Shown here one piece after another: positions 9,701 through 63,312 of a stretch of 64,000 nucleotides of DNA. The notes beneath the pieces are model-generated. The model made no database searches. It saw only the letters and a program-made list of their open reading frames with translations, and was not told the origin of the DNA. Made by a program: the position numbers and the translations under genes. Positions within the stretch are counted from its first letter, which is position 1, and every line of letters begins with the position of its first letter. The DNA is from Xiphias gladius (taxonomy: Eukaryota; Chordata; Actinopteri; Istiophoriformes; Xiphiidae), in assembly GCF_016859285.1 (NCBI RefSeq), contig NC_053421.1, positions 5,895,600 through 5,959,599 of the forward strand, written 5' to 3'.

Positions 9701-10451
9701 GTCTCAAGTGGTCGCACAAGACGTAGGGACGAGTAGTCAGCGGTTGAACCGGGGTCCTCAACTGTTCACGCAGACTTAAGTAAGCTGTAAGTAGATTTCT
9801 TAAAATGTCTTCGGCGTCTTATACGACATTACTTTTCTCCTGATAACGTGAAGTGCTTTAGCTAAGTTAAATGATGACAATTTTTTTTTTCTCTTTTTAA
9901 TATCAATGGTTGTCAAGCACTTTTAAAAAGCGGCTCGTCCAGGTAACACCACAAGCTCATTACTTGGCCCCCCAGCCTCGCACGTGATGGCTGCTGAGGA
10001 CCGTGGCCATAGCTGTGTGCTCTGGGTGTTTGTGGTGGTCAGGTCAGGGAGGGGGCGGTTGAGGTGCTGTGTGGCTGTTTGTGTAAGCGGAACAGTTGGT
10101 GCTCTTGTCCCCCGTGGAAGTAGGTGAAAGGGCCCCAGTGCTGAAGAGCAGCGGCTGATCATGCTCACTTCACATGCTCCTCTACATCCTCTGTATGTGT
10201 GGATGAATGGCAAAATCAATAGGCTTTAAAACATTGCTCGAATGTTGCTGAGATGCTGAGACGAGGACGTCTGCTTACATAATGTAAGGATAATTGTATG
10301 TAAATCCTCAAACCCAGCACAGTGACAACGGGTGTATTTAAGAAAAGTTCACTACAGGACTATATCGGGCTATGTATTGAAAGGCATCATCTGAATCTCA
10401 TGAAAGAACACTGCCCTGCGCTCATTTTCGCTCCTGTGCCAGATTTACAAC

Positions 10452-12395
10452 ATGGAATCTGAGGAGCTCCACTCAAACATCCCGAGTGAACTCCAGCCTG
10501 CTCCTATGGGTGCAGGTGACATGGAGGCTGTGGAGGCTCTGATGTCCATGACTAAGCACTGGAAAAGCAGGAACTTCAGACTCAGACACTTCAGACCCCT
10601 GACTCCGTCCTCAGACTGCTCAGAGGACGACTCTGTCCCCCTGGGGTCTGGTGTGCTACAGGATTCTCATTTGGTGAGTGACCCATACGGGCTACGAGTT
10701 GTCATGTTTGGGCAAAGTTTTTTGCGATCCTGTGGCTTTAAGCACAAGATTATTTTGAATTGTTGTCCATGCTATGCCGCTAGCTACGAAGGCCATATGA
10801 TAAGCGTTTTTTCTTTTTTCTTTTAGCAGCGATTTAAAAGAACATAACTATTTTTCAAGCTTGAGTTCATCAATAAAAAAATATAAAAAATGAATAACCT
10901 TCCTTTCCTCTCAGTGTATGACGCCACCGTACAGCCCACCCCACTGTGAGGCCACCCATCCACCCTCGGCAGCAACCTTGCATCAACTTGCACTAGCTGG
11001 AAGTCCGACCTGGCAGCCAGCATTAGAGACACATCTGCACACGCAGACTGCTGCTTCTCAGCAGAGGTTCCAGTGCACCAGTGTAATCCGCCATACCGCA
11101 GATGGCCGGCACTGCTGCTGTAGCGTCCATCCTGTCTCAAAAGAAGACAGACTCGGTCGAGTTCATACAAAAGACTCTAAAAGAGATTTGAACTCTGAAG
11201 ATGGGCAAAAAACTAGAGACTCTGAGAGGATTATTATAATGCACTCTGACTCTAGGGCTGCCACGCCACAGAAGCCTTTAACTGCGACTTTGCCAAATGT
11301 GGCTGAGGACAGCCAGACTCAGATGAGTCTTTCAGGCCCAGATGATGAATCAAACACACCTCAGTCTTGCGCCTCCGCCCCAGCTGGTGTTAATGGAGTC
11401 TCCCCCGTGCCCGTCTACTGCCAGTTTCTCTCTGTCTCTTCTCTTTCCGCCGCTGTTGTGCAAAAGCCCGTCACAGCCTCTGAGAGTCAGAGGCAACACA
11501 CACCGCAATGTGTAAGTGCCGCATCAGCAGCCTCAACTCTGCACACACATCAACAACAGCAGCACAAACAACAACTTGCTCTACTGCAGCCACAAACCCA
11601 AGCAGCTTCTTCTGCCCAGGTCTTCCTCCTTGGGGGTCAGGTTGCAAAAGGACCCCTAATGCTCCTTGTCCCTCAGCCGGCTATTCCTACTGTCTACGTT
11701 CAGCCAGCGCTGGTGACATCTGGTGGCACCAAGTTACCAGCCATCGCCCCCGCACCTGGTCGTACCCTGTTGGAGCAAAGGCAAAGTCCACTGCAGCCAG
11801 AGTTGTCCCGTGTTCGCAGTCACGTCTGTCCCCATGAGGTATGCAGGAAGACCTACTTCAAGAGCTCCCACCTCAAGGCCCACATGAGGACACACACAGG
11901 TATGAGATGAAGGATATGAATACGAAATTGTACTGTACTTGTAGCGTCAAGAAAGTATGTGGATTTTAATTATGTATTTCAGGCAATATCAGCATCTTGC
12001 GCAGACAACAAATTGAAAGAAGTAAAAATAATCCATAGTCATGAAAAGAGATGAGGCATCAGATGTTCCTCAGTGCACGGCTCAAAGTCCTCAATTTCCA
12101 CTTCACTGTCCTTGTCACACCAGGTGAGAAGCCCTTCAGATGCAAGTGGGAGGGCTGTGAGAGGCGATTCGCTCGCTCTGATGAGCTGTCTCGCCACCGA
12201 CGGACCCACACAGGAGAAAAGAAGTTTGTCTGCCCCATGTGCCTCAGCCGCTTCATGCGCAGTGACCACCTGGCCAAGCACACCCGTAGACACCTAGCAG
12301 CAAGGAAGACGCCCTGCTGGCAGTTAGGGGTCACCCAAGCTGCTGAGCTCACTGCTTCCACAGCACTCTGTCTCTCCATGTCAAACTCTCTGTGA
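10452..12395 (+). CDS. klf10: Krueppel-like factor 10 (TIEG1-type), complete coding region
   Basis: Coding exons 10452-10673, 10915-11899 and 12124-12395 join in phase to 492 residues (human KLF10 480). The acceptor before the ATG (AG|ATTTACAACATGG) and in-frame stops in the preceding noncoding exon support this start. Residues 24-37 ([14 protein letters not shown]) are the Sin3-interacting repression helix of TIEG proteins. [16 protein letters not shown] and [10 protein letters not shown] match conserved KLF10 repression segments. Three C2H2 fingers close the protein (about 376-467): CPHEVC...H, CKWEGC...H and CPMC...H, with the KLF linkers TGEKPF and TGEKKF. The intron splits the Gly codon of the first linker. 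It should bind GC/CACCC boxes in the nucleus and repress transcription. KLF11 is the alternative; synteny with ubr5/azin1 and the TSVIRHTAD match favour KLF10. Confidence 0.93.
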
Positions 12396-14522: not shown

Positions 14523-17500
14523 CTAAGCTGGGACAGAGAGTGCAGCTTCTGTTTGGCAGGAATTGAGGAAATAAGGGACCAATGAGAAGTTCTTCAGTGT
14601 AGCCTCCTGTGTGACACCGCTGTCCTGCATCTCGAACCTGGTGGAGGGAAATTAACGTGAGTCAAGTGCACATTTAGACACAGGAAACAAGGTTTCTTTC
14701 AAACTGTGAACTTCTTAATGCACTCCAAATTTAAAAATATGTCATGTGTCCTTACCAGTCTCTAGAGGAGATGACATAGTATACAGGGGGTGGAGGGGAG
14801 TCTGTGGCGGTGCAGAGTGGCTGACCCAGACTGTAGGCCCCGGCATGGGTGAACACGAGCCAGTCGCCGATGTTGAGCTCGGGTAACAAACAGTGCTCCA
14901 CTACCTGGTCCAGGTCATCCCCAGAGGGACCCCACAGGCTGCTGCTGAACACTGGAGCATCCAGGGATGTGTTCTGCTAACACAAAAAGAAGAGATCATC
15001 TGTTTGTACATGTATCGCAACAATCTTTTTTAATAAAAAACTGAGGTGAGTTGTGTTTCAAGAACCAAAAAAGGCAAACGTTACACAAGGATAACCAAAC
15101 CCTTGGTATGGCCATGAAAATAAGGGAAACTCAATTAACATGTCTGTCTTATATTAATGAACATCATAAATAAATAAATATAATCTACAGGCAGCAAAAT
15201 TTTGATCTTCACAATTTTTAATTCACTTTATACAATAAAATGTATTTATTTGTATTTTTATGTTGATAATTTTGATGATTGACTAGTTTAAGGTATGGTA
15301 TATGAGTAAGCTGTGCTTTTATTGTCCTGTATACACAAGGTGCCCATGCAAGAGTCAAGAGCTCTCACCAGACCACACTATACAAATGAAGTTTGAATGA
15401 ATGGATGAACTATGGTTACATGTTGACCCAGAGAATTTATGAGACTCACCTTGTGAACAGATGGAGTAGCAATCAGTGTTTCAGAGAGTTTGCAAGCAAA
15501 TGATCCATACACTCCCTCGTTCATGTAGTACTGGAACTCTGGCTCATCGTTGGGAGATGGATCATCTGTTCAGAGAGACAGTGCACAAAATCTATTAGTG
15601 TAATAGATGTATTTTTAATTTCAGTTTGTGATTGACACATTTGTGTAGTTATCTTTGGCACAGCAGCTGGGTTGCCTTTACTTAATGCATTTTTCATATT
15701 ACAGCCATATTCCTCCTTGTTTGTCGGTAAATGAGCCATTGAAAGTGAATTTCAGGCCACTGACCGTGTCCCTGGTCCTGCCGATCTCTTGCCACCACCT
15801 CCTTTGAGATGACGTTAACAGCCAGGGTGAAAGCAGAGGACACAAAGAAGCTGCCAGGCTCAGCAATAATGGAAACCCCAGTAGAAAGAGGGAAATATAG
15901 GTCCACCATAGACATGACTGCACTATTGATCTGCAAAAACGATGACAGTGTTAAAAAGTGGGAACCAAAATGGGTAGGCCTTGAAAGAAATCACATTTAA
16001 GACATTGTAATTAATCACACTGTCAACCTTTGAATCAGACCCCTCACTAGCAGAAACAGTGTTGACTAAAGTGTGTCCTATGGCTGGGCAGCACAATGTA
16101 AAAAAAACATAACACGGCACATTTTGAAAACTGGATGATAATGATACATTGTATTTCACAAGATGATTTCTTTCTCCTCATAATTTCAAAAGAATGTAAT
16201 TCAAATTCAATACGAGTGACATTGTTGCGATGCAGTAAAAAAACATTGACAAAGGTTAATAGCCAAATCCATATCATGGCACATTTCTCTACCAGTGCAT
16301 TGTTTACCCACACCTAGCGCATCCTTAAATCAATGTCATGTGAAGAGCAGATAGACATACACTGACCAGCTCCAGCTGAGTCTCAGAGCCACTGAAGCCG
16401 CCTCCAATGTCCAGGATTTTCATGTTGAAGCCAATTTCCTCCTGAGGGAGACAAAGGCTTGTAAATGTGTAACCAAAACACAAGTGATTGCCAAAGAACT
16501 GAGTGTTTTTGGAGCGATTACAAGTCTCCAAAAGTCAACAGTGTGTGATAGAAGGGAACAGAAATGGTAGTCGCTGAACGGAACAGTGTAACAAGCTACA
16601 TAACAATATTTAAGATTACTTACTCCCATATCAAAGACACAGCGGGCATCAGAGATGGCATGAACATACACCTGGTCATCGTCACAGGAGCTGGAAATGT
16701 GAGACCTGTGGGGTGGTGGGGTGAGGGTTAAATGGTCAATCTGACACCTTACTAATAAACTATATTTTATCCTGTAGAATGGTGGGTGGTTAATTCAAGA
16801 GGGAGTTGCTGTGGTCCTTGTACACAATGTATACTTCCATTTCTTCAAACTGCTTGATAAGCAGTCACAGTGCATTTCTGCAGGCCTCACCTGACACCCA
16901 CTACCTGCACACCCAGTTCCTTAGCTCTCTCCAGCAGATGCCTGCAGTCCTTAAGGGAACAGCCGAATGTCATGCTTATCTCATCATCTGGGTTGGATGC
17001 TTCTGTTGACACCTGCACCAGCAGCCTGAATTAACACACAGGAAACAATGAACATTGGTAACCGTTTCGGTGGGAGAGAAAGTGATCTGGATGAGTTATA
17101 TTAGGAAGCAAGCAACGAATCACAAAATTTCTGCCACCAAGAATGAATATTTTTACAACTTGATTTGATATAAGCGTATTTGTTGCTCATACGAAACAAC
17201 TGAAATGCTGTAACAAACGAATAGTAAGTAATACTGATAACAAAGCCCATTATTAAAGAACATAGACATGGCAATTTTCACGTTACGTGATCACTGGCAC
17301 TGGGACTAATACTAATACAATCAAGCACTTACTTGGCATTGGGGTGGCAGCGAGAAATCTTGCGTAGCTCCGCTTCATTATCACACACCAGAAGGTCAAT
17401 GCCGTTTTTAGCAGCATATTTAATCTGAGAGACCTGCTTGCAAACACCACTGTAGATGATATCTTCAGAGGGAATACCATGGCTCTGCACAAGCTCAAGT

Positions 17501-18446
17501 TCGGACTGACATAAAAAAGAGAAAAAGACAGAACCTCAATTAATATACAGTATGTGGGCTAGGAAACAGACATTTTATCATATCATGTCCATCCTACATG
17601 GTTCACCATAAAAAAATACATGATAAACAGTAATTAAAAGGTGAGCACTGAGGTCCACTGACCACTTGGTGGTGCCTTTATAACTACTACAGCTTGTGGA
17701 CCAAGAGTTGTGCAATATTATTCTACATAAATGTACTAGTACTTGCTGGGAGGGTTAGTATATAATGGTCTGAATTTAGTACCCTATAAAATAAGGGTAG
17801 TAAAGTCCTTTAAAACACTTGATACTGAGCAATTTTCCACTAAGTATGCAAGACTGTACAGCCTAAACCGTGCATACTGCAACTGTGATTATTTTTTGTG
17901 GAGAAACCTGAACTGACATCAGTTATCTAATGTGTTTGTGAGAGTACCTTGTTGGTGCATATGAATCCAGTGCCAAGAGCAGCAAGAACTTCAATAACAG
18001 CTGGACTGCTGTTGGATCTGACAGTATAGTAGGGTCGAATTTGGGCCATGTGTGTTCGCCAGCGAACATGCTGCCTCATTATGACTCCCAGGTCTGCTAC
18101 AAAGAATGCATCCTTCTCAGACTGAGGAAGAGGGAAACATACATGTGGATGAGTCAGAAGAACATACACACACTGCAAGCTTCTGCCAAACGTGTCTGTA
18201 TGTAACATTACCACATAAACTAAACAATGCAATAACAGCAATACAATACAATTACAGGTGTTAGACAAAGTTATAAAAACAGTATGAAATCCAGGTTAAT
18301 ATGTTGGTGCTAAATGTACATGTTGCTACAGTGAGATTCCTTACCAGAGTTTGTTCATAAATGTGGTTGTCGATCACGTCACAGAGTGCCGTGCCTCCCT
18401 CCAGTAGGCCAACAGAATACTGTGGTTCATCAGCAATACCTTTCAT
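14523..18446 (-). CDS. azin1: Antizyme inhibitor 1 (ODC-like, catalytically dead), complete
   Basis: Ten coding exons: 18446-18345, 18121-17948, 17505-17333, 17025-16891, 16705-16624, 16441-16367, 15930-15765, 15565-15450, 14976-14756, 14637-14523; phases agree and give 452 residues (human 448). The start [18 protein letters not shown] parallels human AZIN1. AZIN1 mimics ornithine decarboxylase, captures antizyme and so frees ODC and polyamine uptake. The antizyme-binding element is conserved ([14 protein letters not shown]). ODC features are degraded: PLP Lys69 is Arg (YYTVRSNS), Lys169 is Thr (SMTFGCSL), Cys360 is Gly (WGPSGDDLD), and the EPGR motif is EPGS as in all AZIN1. ODC is excluded by these losses; AZIN2 is less likely given synteny and the N-terminus. 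Exon 9 has a tandem acceptor; the leader carries regulatory uORFs. Confidence 0.95.
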
Positions 18447-18450
18447 CCTC

Positions 18451-18480
18451 TCAACCGTTTTCCTCTAATCCGACAGGCAT
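18451..18480 (-). promoter_or_regulatory. Short AUG uORF abutting the azin1 start
   Basis: In the third leader exon (18555 inward) the minus strand has ATG at 18480 opening a nine-codon frame (MPVGLEENG) that stops at 18451-18453, four bases before the azin1 ATG at 18446 and in another frame. The only AUG between the long AUU uORF and the main start. Such close spacing would favour termination-coupled reinitiation by short backward or forward movement, or simple leaky scanning. Confidence 0.55.
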
Positions 18481-19820
18481 AAAGAATGTGGCTAATCTGA
18501 AGTGGTCTTGCTCGCTCGCTCTCAAGCCCCTGGGGTCCTAGACCTTTGCAACAAACTGTACAAGAAAAAGAGAAAGGTCAACATGAAGTTCAAGAAGCAA
18601 AACAATTCAGCCATATTTGGACAATACATATTTATTTATGTTGTCCAACTCTTGTTTATTCATTAGCTGGAATCTAAACCACTCTGATGTGATCCCCAAT
18701 CAAACAATTCATTTTCAGTGAGCATCCAATCAGAGCCCAGCACAGGTTCCATGTTATGGGACAGCTTTGTGGAAGAGACCTATTCTTCTGAAAAGCCACT
18801 GTGAAAACACAGAGTCTGGGGCACAGGGTTCATTTACTTTACCATCAATTACTCCCAACAATCACCATTAATCCCTGAGCTGGTGACCCGTAAAGGTTCT
18901 TTTTGATGGCATTAAGCAAGGTACAATACTGTCTGCGTCCGTGTCACAACTTCACTTTCAACAATGTTGCACAATACGTCAGAGAGGCACAGTAGTGACT
19001 GGATCAGATCTGAAATGACTGGTTTTGGGAGGTTAAATGGGGAGACTAAACAATGTGCCAATGTGTTTTAGACTACTATGACAAGGCTGAAACAAACAAA
19101 TAAACAGACAGAAGGACAAATTTGCAGTGCCTCTTTGGTTTCATTGTGAAAGAAAATCAAATGACTGCAGTTATAGATGAAATGTGTGGGTTTTAATTAT
19201 TAAGTTCTCTTCTGACACGTGTATAAAAAGAATGGGAGATGGCTCAACCCTATTATCTCTTTAAAAATCAACCACGACTTTATGTAACTTGGAAAAAGCT
19301 TAACTGTGTCACTCATACCGTTTCCCTCATAAAAGAAGTTGTGACATTAATGGGGGCATAAATGTACAGTTCTCATATTAGCAGGATTAATATCTTTAAC
19401 CAAATGATTCTCCTTTACTGCAGCTAAATCATAGCAAGAGAAAATCTACTGCAGATAAATCAGTCCAGAACACAGTGTCCTGTTATTTTAATAGAAGTGC
19501 CTAAAATAGATCTGAAATGGTAGATCTAAAATAACTATAGACTGTTTGTGATTTATCTGGGACATGCTGTTTGTTAATACACCTATTTATTTCTTCGTCA
19601 ACAGTTTCAGTGAAGCAATTTGCAACAGTGTATTTAAAATGACAATGACATTTATCCCTGGAATCAGACACACAGAGACAAATGCAAGAGAAAACATGGT
19701 TTTGTGTGCACATGTTTTTGCTATGAGAATAGCCACAATGCAATCAAGAGAATACATTAATACTTTAGTTCACACCTAATTTACTTACATGGATAAGTCC
19801 TGGGATGAACTCGTCCACTA

Positions 19821-20717
19821 TCAGCTAGGATCCCAAGGTGGCTCGGCGTTGAAGTCAAATGGCTCTCGGTATAGAGCTGCCCCTAAATCCTCTGGATAGT
19901 TGTTGTACACCTGCAAAGGGACAGATGAGGACAGGGCACATAGGAATCAGTCACTAACAATGAAACAACTCTGACGAGGAGAGCAACTTTCTCCACTCAC
20001 ACATGCTCCAATCTACCTTAACATTTATGCACTGTGCAATCACATCTGTTGTGGTAGAGGAAATACTGGTATGCGGTTGAGCAGGCGAAATGAGAGTGGA
20101 ATGTTAAAAGGATATAGGAGGAGAGCAAAAAAAAAATTCTTTGAAGAAATTTTTTTTTATGGTTTACTTTGTGTGTGATATTTTTTTTTCCTGTCATGAC
20201 TGGTCAATAAGTAAGGTAAATTGAAGTGATGCTATCGTGACTAGCACTTTCGAATGTATTGATTTACATTGGTATGTTAATAACAACAGTACGCAGTACT
20301 TTCACACCCTTCCCCGGCGTGATAAGCCAAATACCACACTTTCTGCTACTAATTCAAAACCACATTTAACATGTCTGACTTAAGTTACCTTGCTTGCTAT
20401 AGTAACAGGTAGTTTGCATTCATTGGTAACGTTAAGATTAGCTTTAGCTAGCAACCTAGCAACATACAATGTAAAAATTGTTGTACAGGAATCTGCTACT
20501 CATATTTCAATAATAATGCTACTGACTAATACATTATTTTCAATTTATTATAGCCAGCACCAATTTATTACACCCCGCGCTTGTGGATTACGCTCCGTTA
20601 CCCGGTTAATTTAACAACATGCTAATTAGCAAGCTAACAACGCGGTTAGCTAACGTTACTTACGTCTGCTGAAAACCCAAAAGAGGGGACAGAACGCTTT
20701 TTCTTTTTAGGCGGAAT
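19821..20717 (-). promoter_or_regulatory. azin1 upstream conserved coding region (AUU-start uORF ending PPW)
   Basis: Two leader exons join (20717-20664, donor GAC|GTAAGT; 19910-19821, acceptor GCAG|GTGTAC) into an open frame of 47 codons plus TGA. It starts at ATT (AAAAATTCC, A at -3); there is no ATG in frame between the preceding stop and this codon. The peptide runs Ile/Met-PPKKKKRSVPSFG...VYNNYPEDLGAALYREPF...AEPPWDPS-stop. Vertebrate antizyme inhibitor mRNAs are known to carry such a non-AUG uORF, whose Pro-Pro-Trp stalls ribosomes when polyamines are high. Queued ribosomes raise AUU initiation and shut off AZIN1. Length, AUU start, intron position within the leader and PPW all fit. Placement on the mature mRNA assumes these two introns are spliced as drawn. 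Confidence 0.88.
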
Positions 20718-20719
20718 TT

Positions 20720-20764
20720 TTAAAGATTGGTGGGGTTACAAAAAGAGAAAAGGATAACTGCCAT
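20720..20764 (-). promoter_or_regulatory. AUG uORF just ahead of the azin1 AUU uORF
   Basis: ATG at 20764 (CCATGG, good context) opens 14 codons ending at TAA 20722-20720, two bases before the AUU start at 20717. It is in the mRNA only if transcription begins upstream of 20764, which is unknown. If included it would feed or block ribosomes for the AUU uORF. Confidence 0.35.
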
Positions 20765-37539: not shown

Positions 37540-37748
37540 CACACGAACGCACACCGTCGTGTGACTGCTGGTATCGAACGCCGAACGAGGCGTCGGGGCG
37601 GGCGGGGAAAACAAGCACCGGCGAGCCGCTAGACTGCCCCTGCTTCCCGGGGAACAGGAGGGAAGCGTCAATGCCTCCAGCTCTCCTCTCGCACACCGGC
37701 CCGGACCTGTTCTCGTCGTCGGGCCTCCTGCACTGAGATAATGAGAGG
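37540..37748 (+). promoter_or_regulatory. spire1 promoter / 5' leader, CpG-rich, with overlapping uORF
   Basis: CpG-dense sequence (CGAACGCCGAACGAGGCGTCGGGGCGGGCGG split by eye into GC boxes such as GGGGCGGGCGG near 37595) leads into the first coding exon, and the high CpG density continues past it to about 38850. An out-of-frame ATG at 37741, eight bases before the main ATG at 37749, opens a 14-codon uORF that stops at 37783-37785 inside the coding exon. Scanning ribosomes would have to bypass it. No TATA box is seen. Confidence 0.5.

Positions 37749-63312
<25,564 letters not shown>

Follow-up and report, generated by a model that had tools for sequence, protein, structure and literature searches.

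A split, putatively AUU-initiated upstream reading frame of the AZIN1 type in the leader of swordfish azin1a

The azin1a gene and its spliced leader

The window, i.e., the whole stretch of 64,000 nucleotides of Xiphias gladius DNA that was analyzed, carries on its reverse strand a gene whose coding exons, joined at splice sites picked by hand, yield an antizyme inhibitor (Table 1). The 451-aa ORF showed 100% identity over its full length to the X. gladius antizyme inhibitor 1-like protein (P0007, 453 aa), and identity to other proteins reached at most 96% among the matches listed (best 120 of 1297), several of which are named antizyme inhibitor 1a. Because of this full match to the swordfish protein and the names of its relatives, we regard the gene as swordfish azin1a. 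One exon offers two donors six bases apart (16355-16366), where the swordfish isoform X1 carries an additional Val-Ser, and the two extra residues of P0007, Val-Ser, fit the use of the donor six bases further on. Pfam analysis of the ORF revealed ornithine decarboxylase (ODC) domains, and the PDB sequence matches were led by the AZIN1 chains 4zgz_A and 3btn_A, followed by ODC. An identity as ODC or AZIN2 was rejected on the basis of this order and of the best-named matches, which are antizyme inhibitor 1 or 1a; the name check covered the best 120 of 1297 rows, many of them nameless and some named by the decarboxylase domain only. The azin1a residue aligned with the lysine of the ODC motif PFYAVKCN, which we take to be the cofactor-binding residue, is Arg (YYTVRSN).

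Regarding the neighborhood, plus-strand frames lie beside azin1 at 10404-12395, with a C2H2 zinc-finger Pfam match in 12045-12392 and no Pfam match in 10894-11908; by the human neighborhood of azin1, they presumably represent klf10. A further plus-strand frame (37737-38132) contains a KIND domain and presumably belongs to a spire-type gene.

Table 1. Features of azin1a and its leader, given as positions within the window.
Feature	Positions	Strand	Remarks
Possible 14-codon AUG uORF	20720..20764	(-)	CCATGG, strong context; ends 2 bases before AUU
uORF exon-1 part	20664..20717	(-)	18 codons, ATT to donor; IPPKKKKRSVPSFGFSAD
AUU start codon	20715..20717	(-)	A at -3, C at +4
uORF intron	19911..20663	(-)	753 bases, phase 0; GTAAGT...CCCTTTGCAG
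uORF exon-2 part	19824..19910	(-)	29 codons; VYNNYPEDLGAALYREPFDFNAEPPWDPS
Leader exon 2	19789..19910	(-)	122 bases, GTAAGT donor
PPW codons CCA CCT TGG	19833..19841	(-)	codons from the sequence; stall function from the literature only
uORF stop TGA (19823-19821) and immediate in-frame TAG	19818..19823	(-)	from the sequence
Leader/first coding exon	18345..18555	(-)	splice sites picked by hand
9-codon AUG uORF (MPVGLEENG)	18451..18480	(-)	weak context, T at -3; ends 4 bases before main AUG
azin1a coding region	14523..18446	(-)	10 exons, 451 aa

An earlier, sequence-only reading had proposed that two leader exons join in phase to a 47-codon frame beginning at ATT, and both the coordinates and the phase 0 junction were confirmed: the spliced frame reads IPPKKKKRSVPSFGFSAD up to the junction and VYNNYPEDLGAALYREPFDFNAEPPWDPS after it. 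Equally borne out were its claims of an in-frame stop 18 bases upstream of the ATT (TAA, 20738-20736) with zero in-frame ATG codons, of an EPPWDPS terminus directly followed by a stop codon, and of splice borders at 20663, where the GTAAGT donor starts, and 19911, where the CCCTTTGCAG acceptor (CAG) ends. The PPW codons had to be moved from the proposed 19830-19838 to 19841-19833, and the supposedly good context of the ATT is only half good, as the A at -3 is favorable and the C at +4 is not. Between the in-frame TAA and 20717-20715, the AUU is the sole near-cognate codon; the six codons from 20735 to 20718 read PHQSLK. After splicing, the main AUG of azin1a (18446-18444) lies 141 bases downstream of the uORF stop.

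Homology to the human AZIN1 uORF

In human and mouse, the AZIN1 leader is said to contain an upstream conserved coding region (uCC), reportedly described by Ivanov et al. in 2008 (PNAS) and 2018 (Mol Cell). As far as the sequence can tell, the swordfish frame agrees with this uCC in its AUU start, in the lack of an in-frame AUG, and in the position of PPW near the stop codon. We compared it to the human AZIN1 uORF peptide as printed in the S5 Fig legend of PMC9648851, which revealed 60% identity over 53 columns (E 2e-19 as a single pairwise comparison). Both peptides open with IPPKK at the AUU-encoded Ile, and the alignment reaches PPW.

Single elements of such a frame arise easily, and an open frame, an ATT, splice-like sites, and PPW could in principle coincide without any meaning: between-stop frames of at least 40 codons are common (at least 261 over positions 5000-26000), and the PPW triplet by itself is not rare, occurring nine times when the window is read in all six frames. 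However, a six-frame search of the window with the printed human peptide identified exon 2 with 53.9 bits (E 2e-13) and runners-up of 17.3 and 16.5 bits, whereas the best score in 50 windows shuffled in two-base blocks was at most 25.4 bits. At the DNA level, a degenerate search pattern encoding FNAEPPW(D/E)P had a single match in the window and zero across 100 shuffles, and the peptide has 46 listed relatives with E-values from 2.5e-27 to 0.39. A chance frame is refuted by this homology, and we consider its probability negligible. Judged by sequence, the 47-codon frame is the orthologue of human AZIN1 uCC, and the swordfish azin1a leader very probably carries this non-AUG, polyamine-sensing uORF. 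The earlier assignment to the known AZIN1 type of leader uORF is upheld by the homology to human uCC from the first residue to PPW and by the complete azin1 ORF downstream.

Relatives of the uORF peptide were collected by protein searches, of which the first returned six matches and a subsequent profile search listed 46 matches (E cut-off 10) out of 75 candidates scored. The named sources comprise a goby, Pampus, Coregonus, two catfishes, a gadid, Albula, three rodents, a crane, and Branchiostoma. The motif EPPW[DE]PS was kept in all 46 listed relatives, from fish to rodents, bird, and amphioxus, though this retention is partly selected for, as the relatives were retrieved via shared words located mostly in the conserved end. 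DFNAEPPW was present in 45 of the 46, the exception being the amphioxus protein P0165 (DHNFEPPWDPS). Most relatives (35/46) end at PS; the other 11 continue with W, and nine of those end after a single W. This terminal W fits a TGA read as W and followed by a second stop, but may alternatively be a true TGG. All of this conservation was seen at the protein level; pattern scans for the relatives' DNA in viral and genome contigs gave zero matches. In the databases, the relatives stand as hypothetical, uncharacterized, or unnamed proteins.

Conservation of the beginning is documented by fewer sequences. IPPK was found in four of the 46 listed relatives (P0001, P0127, P0128, and P0129), and most of those without it are intron read-through ORFs or models stopping short of the exon-1 part. 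Six models carry the exon-1 tail, and two of them lack IPPK: P0137 from Arctogadus, which reads PAPDPRRRFSKSLWPLSH, and P0148 from Pangasianodon, in which only RPLSH remains after other sequence. Both count against an invariant start; both are gene models, which may be misjoined. Directly before IPPK, three of the four IPPK relatives have SLK (PHPSLK, PRHSLK, and PHYSLK), and the goby has STN. Because the swordfish frame is closed above this site, the SLK upstream of the AUU may reflect a nucleotide-level constraint on the context of the start codon.

Exon borders of the uORF

From the AUU-encoded residue to the junction, the swordfish uORF has 18 residues. Splitting the four IPPK relatives at the corresponding 18 residues places the border directly ahead of VY or separates LSH from G in every case, and in the printed human peptide the same cut likewise follows LSH, with the human border being deduced. 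Exon borders of the relatives were taken from gene models and from ORFs that read through introns; on the donor side, all four IPPK models agree, and the acceptor side is six codons off the human one. These data suggest that the two-exon uORF is probably the vertebrate norm and not a peculiarity of swordfish. The earlier claim that this fish keeps the full sensor including the exon-intron structure seems to hold for the two exons and the place of the donor-side junction; it has to be qualified for the acceptor, which is not at the apparent mammalian place, with a six-codon segment being absent.

A segment before VY, such as GKISDQ or GSPVSAQ, was identified in 33 of the 46 listed relatives, and a version of 6-7 residues is present in human, rodents, crane, catfishes, and the gadid. 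The 33 relatives of this long class comprise 26 matching QG....VY, a pattern that would be expected of reading through an intron ending in CAG, four gene models with LSHG, and three rodent models. As in swordfish, the segment is missing in eight relatives (P0001-P0006, P0128, and P0130), and five fit neither class; the class rule behind these counts was revised after a first try, which moved P0128 from the long to the short class, as it has no segment before VY. Within the short class, two models (P0001 and P0128) show the junction itself; P0130, with LSVQ before its VY, is a doubtful member. It therefore seems that the donor is conserved and that the acceptor differs by six codons, or by seven in comparison to the catfish. 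An exon 2 extended by 18 bases is impossible in swordfish, because the 40 bases preceding the acceptor contain no further AG (the nearest is at -45).

In search of a vestige, we further compared the in-frame codons at the very end of the intron with the segment of other relatives. Swordfish scored 7, P0002, P0005, and P0006 scored 6 each, P0004 scored 0, and P0130 scored 16, and nine other intron ends of this gene, which served as controls, ranged from -8 to 8 (a tenth was dropped due to a stop). The swordfish intron end thus shows no significant remnant of the missing codons (7 vs. -8 to 8). P0130, the sole outlier of this comparison, may still have the segment.

In the most economical scenario, one lineage came to use as its acceptor a CAG that had been a glutamine codon within the ancestral exon; a change in the reverse direction is also conceivable. 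The distance from the AUU to the second Pro codon amounts to 126 nt in swordfish, goby, and Coregonus, 141 nt in human and crane, and 147 nt in Pangasius. A more far-reaching proposal is that the acceptor of teleost azin1a was displaced in frame to a CAG that encodes Gln in other vertebrates, deleting six codons and shortening the distance between AUU and stall site from 141 to 126 nt, about half a ribosome; one of the duplicate azin1 genes of fishes would then possess a switch that differs in queue geometry and set-point. We put this proposal forward as a speculative one that is rather unlikely to be correct. The passages returned by our searches of the open-licence literature repeatedly describe the mechanism and do not mention that the acceptor differs. 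The swordfish uORF is a further case of the published switch with a small structural variant, and ordinary in kind.

Translational control and comparison with known systems

The mechanism of the AZIN1 uORF has been described for mammals, and according to PMC9082881, PMC11058473, PMC7530721, and PMC11550727, polyamines hamper eIF5A, which leads to a stall at PPW, a queue of ribosomes back to the AUU, more initiation at this codon, and less AZIN1. The uORF is also mentioned in PMC8162569, and PMC4383229 deals with the same uORF and includes a figure of its vertebrate conservation. PMC9082881 places the AUU about 30 codons upstream of the stall, which disagrees with our count of 46 to 47 codons for the human peptide as printed. 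The alignments of the two Ivanov et al. papers (2008 and 2018) may well include fish, so the fish uORF has possibly been reported already.

Three elements of the published account are present in swordfish, namely the AUU, the terminal PPW, and an AZIN1 ORF further downstream. With the AUU in exon 1 and PPW in exon 2, the switch can be encoded solely by a spliced leader, which agrees with the earlier claim that splicing is required to build the stall peptide. By analogy with the mammalian work, we infer that polyamine repression operates in swordfish as well. At low polyamine levels, few ribosomes would start at the AUU and AZIN1 would be made. At high levels, hampered eIF5A function would let ribosomes stall at Pro-Pro-Trp, the stall would produce a queue back to the AUU and hence more starts there, and the increased AUU initiation would lower AZIN1 synthesis.

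Two other roles of the frame have to be considered. In the first, the peptide is encoded, but control lies mainly with the upstream AUG uORF, the promoter, or the choice of splice sites; ribosomes would then rarely reach the AUU, and control by polyamines would be weak or lost. The AUG uORF has a CCATGG context and stops directly ahead of the AUU, and in the four IPPK relatives the gene-model frame is open upstream to an ATG. The swordfish AUG uORF would precede the AUU in the mRNA, and interfere with it, only if transcription starts upstream of 20764. A pyrimidine tract between AUG and AUU, CCTTTTCTCTTTTT, could hold the transcription start, and the end of the swordfish peptide is intact, which would be unexpected if the switch were lost. 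We consider this scenario very unlikely. Even less credit is given to a stable, functional micropeptide, instead of or besides a stalling leader peptide: the exon-1 start (IPPK and basic residues) is common to human and four relatives and thus extends beyond the stall motif, but the conserved end is already explained by the mechanism as published in the sources above, and the middle of the peptide varies in sequence and length among relatives. The reading as an AZIN1-type stalling leader peptide remains the preferred one.

In mammalian work, AZIN1 uCC lets cells cut the production of antizyme inhibitor when polyamines are plentiful. This published mammalian switch is recognizable as a whole in a fish genome despite having no ATG and being split by an intron. 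Because the ribosome-queuing model predicts an effect of spacing, the natural start-stall distances of 126, 141, and 147 nt also provide a ready means of testing it.

Compared to AZIN1 uCC of human and mouse, the swordfish uORF shares the AUU start, the first residues IPPKK, and the position upstream of the AZIN1 ORF, as well as the end VYN-YPE-LG--LYRE-FDFNAEPPW-PS with PPW near the C-terminus. Its division into two exons with the same donor-side junction is a further likeness suggested by the relatives. It differs from the human uCC in having 47 instead of 52 codons, lacking GELSDQ at the exon junction, carrying one extra Asn, and ending in DPS instead of EPS, and in a distance from the AUU to the second Pro codon that is 126 nt vs. 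141 nt. A more distant counterpart is the HOL1 uORF of yeast, which, according to PMC11550727, is likewise passed by leaky scanning and on which high polyamine levels likewise cause a stall and a ribosome queue; in contrast to the AZIN1 type, it belongs to a polyamine importer gene, and the stall occurs at termination after Pro-Ser and not at Pro-Pro-Trp.
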